Of a stretch of DNA of 64,000 bases, positions 8,673 to 15,324 are shown one piece after another. The translations under genes were made by a program, and so were the position numbers. The first letter of the stretch is position 1. Every line of letters starts with the position of its first letter. Below the pieces are notes generated by a model. It searched no databases. It saw only the letters and a program-made list of their open reading frames with translations, and was not told where the DNA came from. Origin of the DNA: Pseudomonadota bacterium (GTDB taxonomy: Bacteria > Pseudomonadota > Alphaproteobacteria > UBA8366); assembly GCA_036339585.1 (NCBI GenBank), contig JAYZAS010000002.1, positions 124,001 through 188,000 of the forward strand. The letters run 5' to 3'.

Positions 8673-10361
8673 TTAAGGAGTAATTTTATATTTAGAGTTA
8701 TACGGAGGCTGAAAACGGTTCAACGCGGCATTCATCACAATCACTGGTATTACGCCAGTAACAACTATTGCTAGCGCAGGCAAAGCCGCCTTCTCCAACA
8801 TTTCATCTTTTGCAAATTGGTATACGTAGGTTGCTAATGTCTCAAAATCAAAAGGACGCAACAACAATGTCATGGGCAGTTCCTTCATTACATCAACAAA
8901 AACCAAAAGACCACCAGCAACACAGGAAAGACGCATCATGGGGAGGATTACAAAACCCATTGTTTTTCCAAAGCCATGCCCAAGGACACGGCTGGCTTCG
9001 ATCATGCTTTCAGAGATTCGGGCTAGACCCGATTTAACAGCACCGTACCCAACAGCCTGGAAACGAACCACGCACGCAAAAATCACCAACGCAACGCCAC
9101 TTGTCAGACCACCACCATATTCCCAACCAAAGATATCCCTAGAAAATATCGCAACATAATTATCTAGGGCACCTCCAGCCATAACCACACCCACGGCTAG
9201 GATAGTGCCCGGGAACGCATATCCAAAAGATGAAATTGCAGTTAATCGCTGGACAACCAAATTCTTGTTAAATGATGCTACCAATCCCAGGAACACGGCT
9301 GTTGCCATAACCAAACTGGCAACTGCACATCCAATTAAAATGGAATTAGCGGCGGCATCAAACATAGCGGCAGTAAGTGCTGTGGAATGTCCCTCGATAA
9401 TAAACCCGACGAGAACCGAAACTGGCGTAACAAACCCCACAACCACGGGAAATAAACAAAAAAATATACAAAAACCTGCACGCCAACCATTAAGCGGCTC
9501 CGGTGAGAAAGAGACCGAATAACGCGACGTGTCAACAAAACGCCTCTTAGCGCGAGCTAATATTTCTACTAGAAGTAACAGTATGATGAAAAGAAAGGCA
9601 CAGGTTGCGATTTGTGCTGCTGCTGCCAAATTGTTCATCCCAAGCCACACATTGAAAATACCAAGAGTAAGGGTTTCAATTGCGAAATATTCTACTGTTC
9701 CAAAATCGGATATCGTTTCCATCATCACTAATGCGACACCGGCGACTATAGCCGGCCTTGCTAATGGAAGACCAACGGACCAAAACATATTACGACCTGA
9801 AATGCGGGCCGCTTCAAAATATGATGAGGGAGTAAGTAGGAAAGCTGTTCGAGCGATAACATAAACATACGGATACAACACAGCACTCATAACGAATATT
9901 GCGCCACCCATGGAACGTATTTCTGGGAACCAATATTCACGAGCTGACTGCCAGCTAAAGAAATGCCGTAACAAACCCTGGACTGGGCCGGCATATTCCA
10001 GAAAATCAGTGTAGGTATAAGCGATCAAATAAGAGGGAATGGCGGCAGGCAGCAACAATATCCATTGACACCATTGCCTTCCGAAAAATTCATACCTACA
10101 GACAACCCAAGCAGCCGTTACCCCAAAAAGAACGCTCAATGCACCCACCCCGGCCATTAAGGCAACAGTATTAACAACGTAACGCGGCAGAACTGTTGCA
10201 AATAAATGTTGCCAAAGACCACCACTGTCACCCGCTGCTGTCACTACGACTGCTACAACCGGAGTGAAAAATGAAACGGCAACCAGGATAGCTGCTATCG
10301 CCCAGAGGTTGAAACGTCCTCTTGTGCTCTCTGAAATCGAGTTACCGATGACAGCTACCAT
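8673..10361 (-). CDS. Ferric-iron ABC transporter permease (FbpB/AfuB type)
   Basis: 562 aa, two homologous six-helix permease halves in one chain, the architecture of FbpB, SfuB and ThiP. Each half has the ATPase-contact loop (EAA motif): YFEAARISGRNMFWSVGLPLA in the first and MIEASRVLGHGFGKTMGFVILP in the second. Its ATG overlaps the stop of the upstream substrate-binding fusion by 7 bp, so the two are translated together. It should move Fe3+ delivered by that binding protein across the inner membrane. No gene for the cognate ATPase occurs anywhere in the window. Convergent with the cyclodeaminase-family gene downstream. Confidence 0.88.
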   Translation of the reverse strand: MVAVIGNSISESTRGRFNLWAIAAILVAVSFFTPVVAVVVTAAGDSGGLWQHLFATVLPRYVVNTVALMAGVGALSVLFGVTAAWVVCRYEFFGRQWCQWILLLPAAIPSYLIAYTYTDFLEYAGPVQGLLRHFFSWQSAREYWFPEIRSMGGAIFVMSAVLYPYVYVIARTAFLLTPSSYFEAARISGRNMFWSVGLPLARPAIVAGVALVMMETISDFGTVEYFAIETLTLGIFNVWLGMNNLAAAAQIATCAFLFIILLLLVEILARAKRRFVDTSRYSVSFSPEPLNGWRAGFCIFFCLFPVVVGFVTPVSVLVGFIIEGHSTALTAAMFDAAANSILIGCAVASLVMATAVFLGLVASFNKNLVVQRLTAISSFGYAFPGTILAVGVVMAGGALDNYVAIFSRDIFGWEYGGGLTSGVALVIFACVVRFQAVGYGAVKSGLARISESMIEASRVLGHGFGKTMGFVILPMMRLSCVAGGLLVFVDVMKELPMTLLLRPFDFETLATYVYQFAKDEMLEKAALPALAIVVTGVIPVIVMNAALNRFQPPYNSKYKITP

Positions 10362-12367
10362 CCTACCCGATCAATCACTTTCTGAGCCTCTGGCGCACGC
10401 TTTGCGATCATCAGTACAGGCATCTCGTGTTCACGAAACGTACCCCATTTAATTAAATCGGAAGACAGGGGAACTGCAGCATTAACCGGATACTCAAAAT
10501 TTATTGTCCCGTACAGCTGCTGCGCTTGTTTCGATGTAAGAAACTCTAAAAACCGAATTGCTTCCTTATAATTTTTTGAAAACTTCGCTATTCCACCACC
10601 AGAAATATTTACATGCGAACCTCTGTCATTTTGATTTGGAAATATTAGGTTCACCGACCCTGCCCACTTTCTATGTTCTAATTTTTCTGAATGTTTGAGT
10701 TTTCCAAAGTAATAATTATTAATGATCGCAATATCACAGACCCCTTCGTAGATACCCTTTATCTGGGCGCGGTCATTTCCCTGCGGCCTCCTCGCCAAAT
10801 TAGAGACCACGCCCTTTGCCCACAACTCCGCTGCTGCAACGCCAGAGGTGTGTATGATGGACGCTACCAACCCCCGGTTATAAACATGACTACCGGGCCT
10901 CGAACAAATCCGGCCCCGCCATTTCGGATCAGCTAAATCTTCATATCGTGCAATACCTGCTGCATCCCGAGCTTTTTTGGATACCGCTACTATCCTTGCG
11001 CGCTTGGAAAAACCAAACCATCTGTTTTCAGGGTCGCGCAGGTGCGCTGGTATATTTGTCTTCAATGTTTCTGATATCACCGGCTGCAATAATTTTTTAT
11101 CCGCATAAACATACAGCCTTGCAATATCAACAGTGAGGATCACATCCGCCGGACTTCTGGGCCCCTCTGCCTGAAGGCGCTGTGCCAAACCTTTGGACGC
11201 ATACACCACATTTATTTTTGTCCCGGTCTTATTTTTATAGGCCTCTAAAAAAGGCTTTATTAAAAATGGCTGACGATGTGAATAAATATTCAGTTCGGCG
11301 GCTGAGGCGTACCCGGGAAATAAGCCCCCCCCAAATATCGACACGGTTAATAAGACCCCACCCACCATTCCTGAGCGACGAGACAGTACCTTCAAAAATT
11401 GAACCATCTTTTTTGAATCCTTTTTCAAAATTTTTGCGATTACGTTCGCCGACGTCGTAAATGGTAGAAAATATAATGAGGACAAGTCATGCTGCTTTCC
11501 ATTCACAACTCCGAACTTAAGTTTTTGTTTTTTGCCTGCTAGCATTAGCGTTCCAAACATTCCATCCCAAATTGCTAAAACGACCCCAAAGTTTCGATCA
11601 TGATGCTCCCTATCTGTGGAGTGGTGAATCTGATGCTGGGCCGGAGAAATCAATAGCCTTTCGACAAACCGTCCGTATGAAATCCATATATGGGAATGGC
11701 GCAGATTTGAACCTACGGCGTTAAATACAAACAAAAAAGCATTTGCGCCCAAAATAGTTAAAAGATCTGCACGGTCACCAAAGAAAAACAAGAAGACAGA
11801 AATAGTTACTGCTTGGACTAAGATTGTGCGCAAAGTAAAGAATAAAGCTTCAATAGGATGTGCCCGAAAGACGGTAAACGGAGTGAGCGTTTCGGCCGAA
11901 TGATGGACTTGATGAAAGGCCCATAAAAAGGAATATTGGTGGAGAGCCCTATGCAGAACATATTTTGTAAAATCATCCAATAGGAATACCGATAGCGTAA
12001 AAATAATGCCTATCGTTAAATCGGATGCATCATCCAAGAGTAAGGTACGGCCATCAAATATTAAGTGTAGTGTCTCGAAAAGCACGGTGGCAAGGGCGAG
12101 CTTGGATATAAGTAACGGCGCAATCCCCAGAAACAACGCTTGATTTATAGCCATTAACTTAAAATCTGCCTTAGCGGAGTCAGACAACCAAATTTTAATT
12201 GAAAATAATTCTGCTAAGGCACTTTTTGGTCGCATTTTGTAAACAAATACTTGTACACCCAAGGCGATCAAGATCGCAGCCAATAAAAACCCTACGAAAA
12301 TGCGTTTCTGTGGATTAAAGAGAGGACCGAATAATTCTCTCGCATAATCAAAGAAGAACAGATCCAT
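10355..12367 (-). CDS. Fusion: fatty-acid-hydroxylase/sterol-desaturase domain + ferric-iron-binding periplasmic protein
   Basis: 670 aa in one open frame. Residues 1-315 are a membrane di-iron hydroxylase of the sterol desaturase superfamily: several hydrophobic helices and His boxes H139-x3-H143, H152-x2-H155-H156 and H245-x2-H248-H249. Residues 321-670 are a complete FbpA/FutA-type iron-binding protein with its own signal peptide (Met321, twin Arg330-Arg331, hydrophobic core, cleavage after GYASA around 356), His364 and the iron-binding Tyr552-Tyr553 pair. Met321 (base 11407) has an AAGGA site about 10 nt upstream, so the binding protein may also be made separately. Such fusions are not familiar to me. 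The hairpin before the gene and the permease after it place it mid-operon. Alternatives: a recent loss of the stop between two genes. Confidence 0.82.
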   Translation of the reverse strand: MDLFFFDYARELFGPLFNPQKRIFVGFLLAAILIALGVQVFVYKMRPKSALAELFSIKIWLSDSAKADFKLMAINQALFLGIAPLLISKLALATVLFETLHLIFDGRTLLLDDASDLTIGIIFTLSVFLLDDFTKYVLHRALHQYSFLWAFHQVHHSAETLTPFTVFRAHPIEALFFTLRTILVQAVTISVFLFFFGDRADLLTILGANAFLFVFNAVGSNLRHSHIWISYGRFVERLLISPAQHQIHHSTDREHHDRNFGVVLAIWDGMFGTLMLAGKKQKLKFGVVNGKQHDLSSLYFLPFTTSANVIAKILKKDSKKMVQFLKVLSRRSGMVGGVLLTVSIFGGGLFPGYASAAELNIYSHRQPFLIKPFLEAYKNKTGTKINVVYASKGLAQRLQAEGPRSPADVILTVDIARLYVYADKKLLQPVISETLKTNIPAHLRDPENRWFGFSKRARIVAVSKKARDAAGIARYEDLADPKWRGRICSRPGSHVYNRGLVASIIHTSGVAAAELWAKGVVSNLARRPQGNDRAQIKGIYEGVCDIAIINNYYFGKLKHSEKLEHRKWAGSVNLIFPNQNDRGSHVNISGGGIAKFSKNYKEAIRFLEFLTSKQAQQLYGTINFEYPVNAAVPLSSDLIKWGTFREHEMPVLMIAKRAPEAQKVIDRVGW

Positions 12368-12432: not shown

Positions 12433-13878
12433 TTAGTCATTTTCAACTGATTTGCCGCCACCGAGCTTGTTTGCTAGGTCTGCCAAATCGCCAGAAATTG
12501 AATTGTTTCGAGCCCGAACCCCAAACTCATCGACAAGTAGCTTCTGAACTTTAGCCATGTGCAGCATATACTCGCCCCAAGAGGAGCCTTGACCCCGCAC
12601 ATAGTTACCTTTGCTATCTATATCTGTGACTTGGCTAAGGTTTGGCATCAGTGGACCCGCACCAATCATCCTGTTAAGCCTAGTTGCGGTTTCACCGAGA
12701 TTTTTCTTACCAGTTTGGAGCGCGAGAGCGAAGCCCTTAAGTTCACCCCAATACTTGATGTATTTGCGAAGTTGTTTCTTGGTGTCACCGTTAGCGTCAA
12801 TGATTGTTTGAAGCTTACCCATGGTCTTGTAAACTGACCCTGCATATTTGTAAGTCGCTTCCGCTAAAACTTTCTCCCAATTATCACCAATCACTGCTGC
12901 ATGTTGGCGCAGTTTTGTTCGCTGTGCATCTGATAATTTCTTACCACCAGCAGACGTAATTAGTTTACGGCCATCAATGAAAGCTTTCACGATAGTATGC
13001 AGGTATTTCGTTTCATTACCTTTCCCATAAACTGAGGCATCGAAACCTGCCGCGTAGTAAGCAGGCCCAAACGTGTGCTCGGATTTAAGGTCGACTTTTC
13101 CATCTTTATTGTAATCCGCGAATATCAGCGCATTCTTTTTTGGCTTTGATTTTTTTCCTTGTTTAGCAATTTCATAAACTTGACGGGGAGTAAGTTTTAA
13201 GGCGTGTGCGGGTGCTCCAAAATAGCCGAACCCCTCATCCCAAGAATGTTCTTTACCCGTGTAGTGCTTTCCCTTTTTGTAAGGCTTATCATTAGGCTTC
13301 TTTCCTGCACTTAACTTTTCATCGAGATAATTATCGACGGCCTGATTATACATCATGGCCCCCATGATGAATTTGGATATGAGCTGTCCGTAATCGTATC
13401 CGTTGGAATAATCCACACCCTTTGTAGCCGATGACGCCTTGTCTATCCAAAATGCTACCAGGTCAGGACCTGTCATATTGCCAGGCATGCCCGTGATAGA
13501 GCCTTTAAAGGTTTTCCCTGCAATATTTTTTTTCTTCGAAATTTCATCGATTGTTGTTTGTTTGACCACATAGGACCCTTTGGTCTTTGGAGCTATTATC
13601 TTGCGCCCTTTATCCTTACCTTTAAAGTAAGACATCATCTTGGATTTTAGCTCTGCATTCGGCTTGCCGTTGCCCTTTGAGGCCAGCTTTTTGAGCGAAT
13701 CATGAAGCGCATGCCGAGCGATTTGGCCAGAATAAGCTACTGAATTTGTTTTCTTACCACTGTACCCCGTAACAGTGACCGGGTATGGTCCATAAACGTC
13801 ACTGTCGGCTACGGCAGCTGTCGTGACTATCGCGAATAACAGTCCAACTAAACCGATTAGGTTTCTTGCTTTTAGCAT
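12433..13878 (-). CDS. Secreted DUF4856-family protein, iron-regulated
   Basis: 481 aa from the ATG at 13878, chosen because GAGGA lies 8 nt upstream and a clean signal peptide follows (MLKARNLIGLVGLLF, cleavage near AVADSDVYG); the longer frame from 13929 has neither. The mature N-terminus (YPVTVTGYSGKK...VAYSGQIARHAL) resembles DUF4856, an imelysin-like family often linked to iron acquisition. A calcium-loop-like DYNKDGKVD lies near residue 260. Very Lys-rich for a periplasmic protein. Two Fur-box-like palindromes lie upstream and a ferric-iron transporter lies downstream, so a role in periplasmic iron handling is inferred; no catalytic activity can be stated. Confidence 0.74.
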   Translation of the reverse strand: MLKARNLIGLVGLLFAIVTTAAVADSDVYGPYPVTVTGYSGKKTNSVAYSGQIARHALHDSLKKLASKGNGKPNAELKSKMMSYFKGKDKGRKIIAPKTKGSYVVKQTTIDEISKKKNIAGKTFKGSITGMPGNMTGPDLVAFWIDKASSATKGVDYSNGYDYGQLISKFIMGAMMYNQAVDNYLDEKLSAGKKPNDKPYKKGKHYTGKEHSWDEGFGYFGAPAHALKLTPRQVYEIAKQGKKSKPKKNALIFADYNKDGKVDLKSEHTFGPAYYAAGFDASVYGKGNETKYLHTIVKAFIDGRKLITSAGGKKLSDAQRTKLRQHAAVIGDNWEKVLAEATYKYAGSVYKTMGKLQTIIDANGDTKKQLRKYIKYWGELKGFALALQTGKKNLGETATRLNRMIGAGPLMPNLSQVTDIDSKGNYVRGQGSSWGEYMLHMAKVQKLLVDEFGVRARNNSISGDLADLANKLGGGKSVEND

Positions 13879-13966
13879 TTTTAAATCCTCTTTCAAGATT
13901 TGTTTAATATAAAAGCCACGATGTCGCAAAAAACCGCGATCCGGAGATTTGAGAACGAAACATAGT

Positions 13967-14047: not shown

Positions 14048-14236
14048 CTTTTACTGCACTTTCGAACTATAATGATTTTTGGTTGCTTTTTTTGGCAAGG
14101 TCACAGTTTTGAAACATTTTGAATAAAATCAGTACTGGAAACTAAATGGGGGAGATTTAGTTCTTTCCACAACCTCTACAACTGAGTGATAATAATTAAT
14201 GAGTCTACACATTAAGACAGCGCAGGTAACCGGCAA

Positions 14237-14653
14237 ATGATAGACAGCAGAATCGAAAGTCTTTGCGAGAAAAAGGGTATGCGTATGACCAACCAACGTC
14301 GCGTGATTGCACAGGTTCTCTCTGATTCAGTTGACCATCCTAGTGTACCCGATGTTCATGAGCGAGCCGTTAAGATAGACCCAAGTATATCAGTGGCGAC
14401 CGTTTACAGAACGGTTCGCTTGCTTGAAGAGACCGGGATTTTAGAAAGACATGATTTTAAGGATGGGTATTCGCGGTATGAGACAAAAAATGAGCACCAC
14501 GATCACCTAGTGAATATCGAGGATGGTACCATAATAGAATTTGCAAACCAAGAAATTGAAACTCTCAAAGAACGGATAGCAAGGGAACATGGTTTTCGGC
14601 TAGTAGATCACAGGCTCGAGCTATATGGAGTGCCTATTGACAGCGACACATGA
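14237..14653 (+). CDS. fur: Ferric uptake regulator, Fur family
   Basis: 138 aa, the family length. N-terminal winged helix with recognition segment SVATVYRTVRLLEETGIL (52-69), then the metal-sensing region: His87-His88-Asp89-His90, Glu101, His118 and His125. No CxxC structural-zinc motif (only Cys10), as in many alphaproteobacterial Fur proteins. It represses iron uptake genes when Fe2+ is plentiful; in some alphaproteobacteria the same family responds to manganese (Mur), which sequence alone cannot exclude. Its neighbours and the five palindromes nearby favour iron. It converges on bfr, with 48 bp between the stops. Confidence 0.9.
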   Translation: MIDSRIESLCEKKGMRMTNQRRVIAQVLSDSVDHPSVPDVHERAVKIDPSISVATVYRTVRLLEETGILERHDFKDGYSRYETKNEHHDHLVNIEDGTIIEFANQEIETLKERIAREHGFRLVDHRLELYGVPIDSDT

Positions 14654-14701: not shown

Positions 14702-15184
14702 CTAGGCTTCTTTTTCCTCATACATGTGTTCCTGCAAATAATTTGGTAAGCCTGCCTGTTCTATCCGAGTGTCCTGAGCTTCAATCCAATCAATGTGTTC
14801 CTCAGTGTCTTTAAGAATAGTTTCAAAAACATCGCGGGAACCATAGTCCCGTACACTTTCACATTCGGCTATTGCCACCTTCAAACAGGCTTGATTTGTT
14901 GTCTCTGACGCCATATCGCATTCGAGGATCTCTGGAACTGTCTCTCCAATTCGCAGTTTACCCAAGCTTTGGAGATTAGGAAGCCCGTCCAGCATCAGGA
15001 TACGTTCTATCAACATATCTGCATGTTTCATTTCGCCGATTGATTCTTCGTAAACCTTCTGGCCGAGCTTTTTAAACCCCCAATCTTCCAACATTCGCGC
15101 GTGAAGAAAATATTGATTGATAGCAGTGAGCTCATTTTTCAATATTAGGTTAAGCTGCTCCAAAACGTTTGTATCGCCTTTCAT
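14702..15184 (-). CDS. bfr: Bacterioferritin
   Basis: 160 aa from the ATG at 15184, giving the canonical MKGDTNVLEQLN beginning; the longer frame from 15274 would translate through the Fur box. GGGG lies 6 nt upstream of this ATG. Iron-storage 24-mer subunit. Haem ligand Met52 and ferroxidase residues Glu18, Glu51, His54, Glu94 and His130 align with E. coli Bfr, but the position of Glu127 is Thr (DTEEHIDW against DEEGHIDW). Tyr25 is kept. It is divergent from bfd, the usual partner that reduces the core for iron release, and a Fur-like palindrome lies between them. Confidence 0.92.
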   Translation of the reverse strand: MKGDTNVLEQLNLILKNELTAINQYFLHARMLEDWGFKKLGQKVYEESIGEMKHADMLIERILMLDGLPNLQSLGKLRIGETVPEILECDMASETTNQACLKVAIAECESVRDYGSRDVFETILKDTEEHIDWIEAQDTRIEQAGLPNYLQEHMYEEKEA

Positions 15185-15252
15185 GCCCTGCCCCATAAAT
15201 ATTGTTAACAATCGGACCACCAAAGGCCTTAGCACGAGAAAAAATCCACATG

Positions 15253-15273
15253 TGCAATTGACTCTCAAGTGCA
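15253..15273. promoter_or_regulatory. Fur-box-like palindrome between bfr and bfd
   Basis: 21-bp palindrome with arms TGCAATTGA and TCAAGTGCA around CTC, symmetric at 8 of 9 arm positions. It lies 69 bp upstream of bfr and 52 bp upstream of bfd, so one site could serve both promoters. Sequence fits the other four sites in outer arms (TGC...GCA) more than in the core. Confidence 0.68.
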
Positions 15274-15324
15274 AAAAATTTACTAACGTTCAACATATTG
15301 AACGCATGCACCCGGGACTAACTT

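Follow-up and report, generated by a model that had tools for sequence, protein, structure and literature searches.

The locus described here raises the question of why a membrane enzyme and a periplasmic iron-binding protein should be encoded in one reading frame and which polypeptides a cell would make from it. The frame lies on the minus strand (10355 to 12367) of the window, that is, the whole stretch of 64,000 nucleotides of alphaproteobacterial DNA that was analyzed, and it encodes 670 amino acids without interruption up to a stop codon at 10355 to 10357. We favor, with a probability of about 0.6, a conserved gene fusion in a ferric-uptake operon that would yield both a full-length precursor and, from an internal start at Met321, free FbpA; the products, the cleavage, and the origin by an indel are what we infer from the sequence.

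Pfam searches placed FA_hydroxylase at residues 125 to 273 (E value of 1e-25) and bacterial solute-binding families at residues 368 to 641, in agreement with the earlier note, which had read the frame as a hydroxylase joined to a full FbpA-like protein. This frame occurs only once in the source genome. The same note had held that a stop or frameshift near 11410, together with relatives carrying two separate genes, would speak against the fusion. The junction contained neither, and the whole-genome copy and independent assemblies had the same frame. The relatives that have two separate genes belong to other clades, and the fusion stands. The search for the same fusion in other assemblies, which had been proposed as a check, returned 26 distinct fused loci in the first set and further family members. 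Within the order, all full-length fused relatives that were found had the frame open (G002 [90%], G005, G009 [70%], G004 with two copies, G010, G020, G038, and G011 [57%]). Elsewhere in the class, the fusion was found in G148 and G298, and in the family of G148 also in G430, G438, G439, and the diverged G442. Nisaea denitrificans DSM 18348 (L051), a type strain in culture, has the fused form as well. Given that the source genome is an assembly of 25 contigs, the fusion could be suspected to result from faulty sequencing or assembly at the junction. However, the same frame in many independent assemblies, including the single-contig genomes G020, G038, and G438, had already refuted this explanation, which we rejected and to which we give virtually no chance.

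A tree of both parts was built with 26 fused and 54 two-gene loci after removal of duplicates. Most fusions fell in one main alphaproteobacterial clade of 20 rows (support of 95), with an inner clade of 18 (support of 99). It contains 19 fused loci and L011, whose binding-protein part is interrupted by in-frame stops resembling a frameshift in that assembly. The fusions outside this clade (L055/L057, L035, L064/L065, L066, and L103) appear, from their placement, to represent several separate fusions, and at least six changes between the fused and split labels are forced by the starred branches of the tree. The locus L103, from a Bdellovibrionota metagenome-assembled genome, also joins these two families but is distant (37% and 33% identity) and occupies a very long branch. 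Neither the DUF4856 gene nor the permease gene described below had a match there, its linker is unrelated, and the fusion is possibly of separate origin. L052 (CP051228.1, “Mesoflavibacter”) and L057 (“Flavobacteriales TMED123”) carry Bacteroidota labels, yet they group with alphaproteobacterial fusions, and their taxon labels or binning are probably wrong. A sister species has, in addition to its fused operon, another one in which DUF4856, hydroxylase, FbpA, and permease are unfused (L033; G002:C46).

The second half of the frame is, by sequence and model, a complete FbpA/FutA-type ferric-binding protein, and it is predicted to bind iron. The predicted mature protein corresponds to residues 357 to 670 (10358 to 11299, minus strand). 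With phmmer, this half matched 6g7n (E value of 1e-87) and 1q35 (E value of 1e-79). Its fold aligned with that of Mannheimia FbpA 1si0 (VIA-align Z score of 44.4, root mean square deviation of 2.0, and 312 aligned residues) and 2pt1 (Z score of 43.9), and the pLDDT of the model over residues 361 to 670 was mostly 92 to 99. The pair Tyr552-Tyr553, already singled out in the earlier note as an iron pair, aligns by residue count with Tyr198-Tyr199 of Mannheimia FbpA, and by the same count on the alignment, Tyr496 corresponds to Tyr142; all three tyrosines are invariant in an alignment of ten fusions. In the Mannheimia protein, Tyr142, Tyr198, and Tyr199 are the iron ligands. No second FbpA of the same family was found in the source genome.

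The hydroxylase part comprises residues 1 to 320 (11408 to 12367, minus strand), with several long helices in the model, and its match to PF04116 (11549 to 11995) reached 91 bits against a gathering threshold of 31. The three histidine boxes that had been described as intact (H139-x3-H143, H152-xx-HH156, and H245-xx-HH249) proved invariant in the ten fusions. On the other hand, the score of this half against the curated OlsE model (NCBIfam NF052566) was 49 bits, far below its cutoff of 475. A fold search with the full model returned matches to the FbpA half only, and sequence searches found no solved relatives for the hydroxylase half or for the DUF4856 protein. We expect the substrate to be a lipid or other membrane substrate that is altered under iron stress.

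The genomic context points to iron uptake. An FbpB-like two-domain iron permease gene (8673 to 10361, minus strand), a conserved neighbor, overlaps the stop codon of the fusion by 7 nucleotides, which bears out the view that the FbpA-type half sits next to its own permease. The first gene of the operon (12433 to 13929, minus strand; likely start ATG at 13884) encodes a DUF4856 exported protein, for which an “imelysin-like” label was not confirmed and was dropped. The order DUF4856, hydroxylase, FbpA, and FbpB permease was found in nearly all loci with enough flanking sequence, across Alphaproteobacteria, including members of SAR11 and SAR116, and Gammaproteobacteria (Neptuniibacter, Aliamphritea, Endobugula, and others). 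In SAR11, SAR116, and the Gammaproteobacteria, the hydroxylase and FbpA are mostly encoded by two overlapping or adjacent genes. An FbpC-like ATPase gene adjoins the operon in a Pelagibacteraceae genome (L094); in the source genome, such an ATPase is encoded on another contig (43%).

Divergent from the operon lies an open reading frame (14237 to 14653, plus strand) whose product, from its translation and from sequence knowledge of the family, is presumably a Fur-family regulator, followed by another (14702 to 15274, minus strand) whose product we assume, on the same grounds, to be a bacterioferritin-like iron-storage protein. Fur and bacterioferritin genes recur near the operon in some relatives. 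The intergenic region that separates the Fur-family gene from the operon contains two short inverted repeats (14140 to 14162 and 14196 to 14215), which are candidate regulator sites. An alternative layout was seen in some Rhodobacteraceae (L107 to L110, L112, and L113), where the DUF4856-hydroxylase pair is divergent from FbpA. In other loci (for example, L102, L105, L106, L114, and L121), the pair is kept without FbpA beside it, with some of these contigs ending soon after. The pair may be an uncharacterized iron-related module. The literature search found nothing relevant that concerned DUF4856 or that paired a sterol desaturase with an iron transporter.

Exactly at the junction between the two parts, we found two elements that are absent from the earlier note, an in-frame ATG encoding Met321 (11405 to 11407, minus strand), which is a probable second translation start, and a Shine-Dalgarno-like AAGGA 10 nucleotides upstream of it (11418 to 11422, minus strand). 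In the alignment of ten fusions, Met321 is the sole invariant residue between P302 and L359. The codon is ATG in all 19 fusions of the main clade, with no changes on the tree, and it lies 20 to 21 codons (once 23) past the end of the hydroxylase alignment in these 19 members. Upstream of it, most fusions have a purine motif (AAGGA, GGAG, or GAGG) that is encoded through differing amino acids (KD, KE, KG, WRP, and GRH), and columns −15 to −10 show the fewest changes among the 24 upstream nucleotides. The predicted pairing with the 16S rRNA tail had a mean of −4.4 kcal/mol at the internal ATG of 20 fusions, whereas 134 further in-frame ATGs averaged −2.6 (P = 1e-4) and synonymously shuffled sequences −3.2 (P = 0.005), although these P values treat related sequences as independent and ignore shared ancestry. 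Genuine starts scored similarly to the internal ATG, with −5.0 for unfused FbpA genes and −4.7 for the hydroxylases. The signal is moderate in strength, and no motif was present in 3 of the 20 fusions (L047, L050, and L055). Among the separate fusions, L064 to L066 had no clear internal Shine-Dalgarno sequence, and L035 and L103 had no usable ATG at the expected place, while the diverged L125 carries GGAGGG upstream of its ATG. L035 (G298) is an A+T-rich locus; if it is confirmed, that fusion must work without an internal start.

As the earlier note had stated, the FbpA half keeps its own signal peptide, internal to the frame. It spans residues 321 to about 356 (11300 to 11407, minus strand), with a putative cleavage site between ASA and AEL. 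Its hydrophobicity (KD19) was 1.86 in fused, 1.80 in split, and 1.75 in lone proteins, and a small-x-small motif was present in all fused loci, which is a weak test, easily met by chance. The structure model, built from 125 sequences, had a pLDDT of 92 and a pTM of 0.62; residues 332 to 353 were undefined, and the pLDDT of the signal region was <50. The C-terminal helix of the hydroxylase (301 to 331) runs into the first residues of the signal peptide, and the model defines no fixed contact between the two halves.

The hydroxylase part does not end in a stop codon, and each complete round of its translation therefore yields a hydroxylase-FbpA polypeptide. Under the two-product reading, ribosomes would also initiate at Met321 and make an ordinary pre-FbpA with an N-terminal signal peptide, and this extra initiation would supply free binding protein in excess of its membrane partner. 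Within the full-length polypeptide, the signal peptide would take FbpA to the periplasm, where signal peptidase would probably cut the precursor and release the same mature FbpA, a cleavage within a multispan precursor that we infer. Free FbpA is most likely the dominant product. As for the origin, a frame-changing indel most likely brought two overlapping genes into one frame. Overlaps between the hydroxylase and FbpA genes were found in 25 of the 53 split relatives with a called start, mostly of 11 to 20 nucleotides and out of frame, and a fusion would result at once from a short indel within one of them.

How the frame is held open is a related matter. The last eight codons before the internal ATG have accumulated at least 158 nucleotide changes and no stops, versus about 10 expected (P = 3e-5). 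We had taken the missing stops as proof of selection for the fusion, an argument that we withdrew since unfused hydroxylases extend a median of 32 residues past Tyr299, to about residue 331, and thus end about 10 residues beyond the position of Met321. A hydroxylase that needs this tail, combined with an FbpA start at Met321 in the same frame, would leave no room for a stop, and the continuity of the frame may therefore be forced by the overlap itself. These data also fit an accidental in-frame overlap, in which two normal proteins are needed and the fusion polypeptide is made but functionless, kept only by the overlap of tail and start. This explanation shares the two-start mechanism with our preferred one but assigns no role to the fused form. 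The frequent overlaps in split relatives and the long tails of unfused hydroxylases speak for it. Against it, though not decisively, a clade with about 50 to 60% hydroxylase identity never reverted to two frames and other lineages contain fusions as well, and we regard it as unlikely while taking it seriously.

The other alternatives concern the fate of the fused polypeptide. The fusion could be the sole product, cut after the internal signal peptide as in FbcH, with the internal ATG as a relic. The signal peptide, as hydrophobic as in unfused proteins and with its small-x-small motifs kept, would suit such a precursor, as would the separate fusions that lack the internal ATG and Shine-Dalgarno sequence (L035 and L103). 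However, an invariant ATG and slowly changing Shine-Dalgarno-like columns in a linker that otherwise varies would be left unexplained, and the enzyme and the binding protein would be made 1:1, which is unusual for such transporters; we hold this reading to be improbable. The earlier note had instead proposed that the signal peptide stays uncut and anchors the iron receptor in the membrane, next to both the hydroxylase and its permease. The topology permits it, fused forms arose several times, and the fusion has persisted without stops before Met321 in one deep clade, yet the need for the hydroxylase tail accounts equally well for the missing stops. Moreover, the signal peptide is no closer to a transmembrane helix than in unfused relatives, cleavage-type motifs remain, the model has no fixed interface, and the internal start would provide untethered copies. 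Because the ATG and Shine-Dalgarno-like site are kept at the junction and the signal peptide resembles that of unfused relatives, free or released FbpA is likelier than a permanent tether, and we could not uphold the proposed anchor, which we find very doubtful; some fusion molecules may still be tethered. Quite improbable as well is that the full-length fusion forms a functional, lasting membrane complex of a di-iron hydroxylase and a receptor tethered at the permease, with the internal start giving free receptor. In such a complex, the hydroxylase might free iron at the uptake site by oxidizing, for example, a lipid or a weak ligand of iron.

The architecture, announced earlier as new if conserved, is conserved, and no paper describing a hydroxylase-FbpA fusion was found in the literature searched, nor was any prior link of the hydroxylase or the DUF4856 protein to iron found in those papers. 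The finding links a membrane hydroxylase and a DUF4856 protein to ferric uptake in many marine bacteria, SAR11 and SAR116 members among them. The separate, overlapping, and fused loci form a natural series for studying how overlapping genes may turn into fusions and still keep two products, and since Nisaea denitrificans DSM 18348 is cultured and fused, it offers a testable system.

Several known systems put this locus into perspective. Many SAR11-type genomes with SfuABC/FbpABC systems (PMC2864753) share the same kind of FbpA and FbpB and have the hydroxylase and DUF4856 genes upstream in the same order, but there the hydroxylase and FbpA are encoded by two overlapping or adjacent genes rather than one frame. 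In Pelagibacter under iron stress, the transcript of sfuC (the binding protein) increased 16-fold, that of the permease 10-fold, and that of the ATPase 5-fold (PMC2864753), a pattern that suits the two-product reading. With FbpA/FutA proteins (Mannheimia 1si0/1q35, Trichodesmium FutA 6g7n, and Synechocystis FutA1 2pt1), the second half shares the fold, 41 to 46% identity, and the three iron tyrosines, whereas here it follows a membrane enzyme without a break in the frame, which makes its signal peptide internal. The first half agrees with the fatty acid hydroxylase/sterol desaturase superfamily (PF04116) in its domain score above the gathering threshold, its three histidine boxes, and its nature as a membrane protein; it differs in bearing a C-terminal periplasmic binding protein, in belonging to an iron operon, and in falling far under the cutoff for the ornithine lipid hydroxylase OlsE. 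The cytochrome b/c1 precursor FbcH likewise joins a polytopic membrane protein to a periplasmic protein in one frame with an internal signal sequence. Its proteins are unrelated, and it is known as a single cleaved precursor, whereas an internal start seems to be kept here. CheA, with its long and short forms, is an in-frame internal-start gene and similarly has one frame, two starts, and a common C-terminal part, but the short form predicted here would be exported as a distinct protein by means of a signal peptide of its own.
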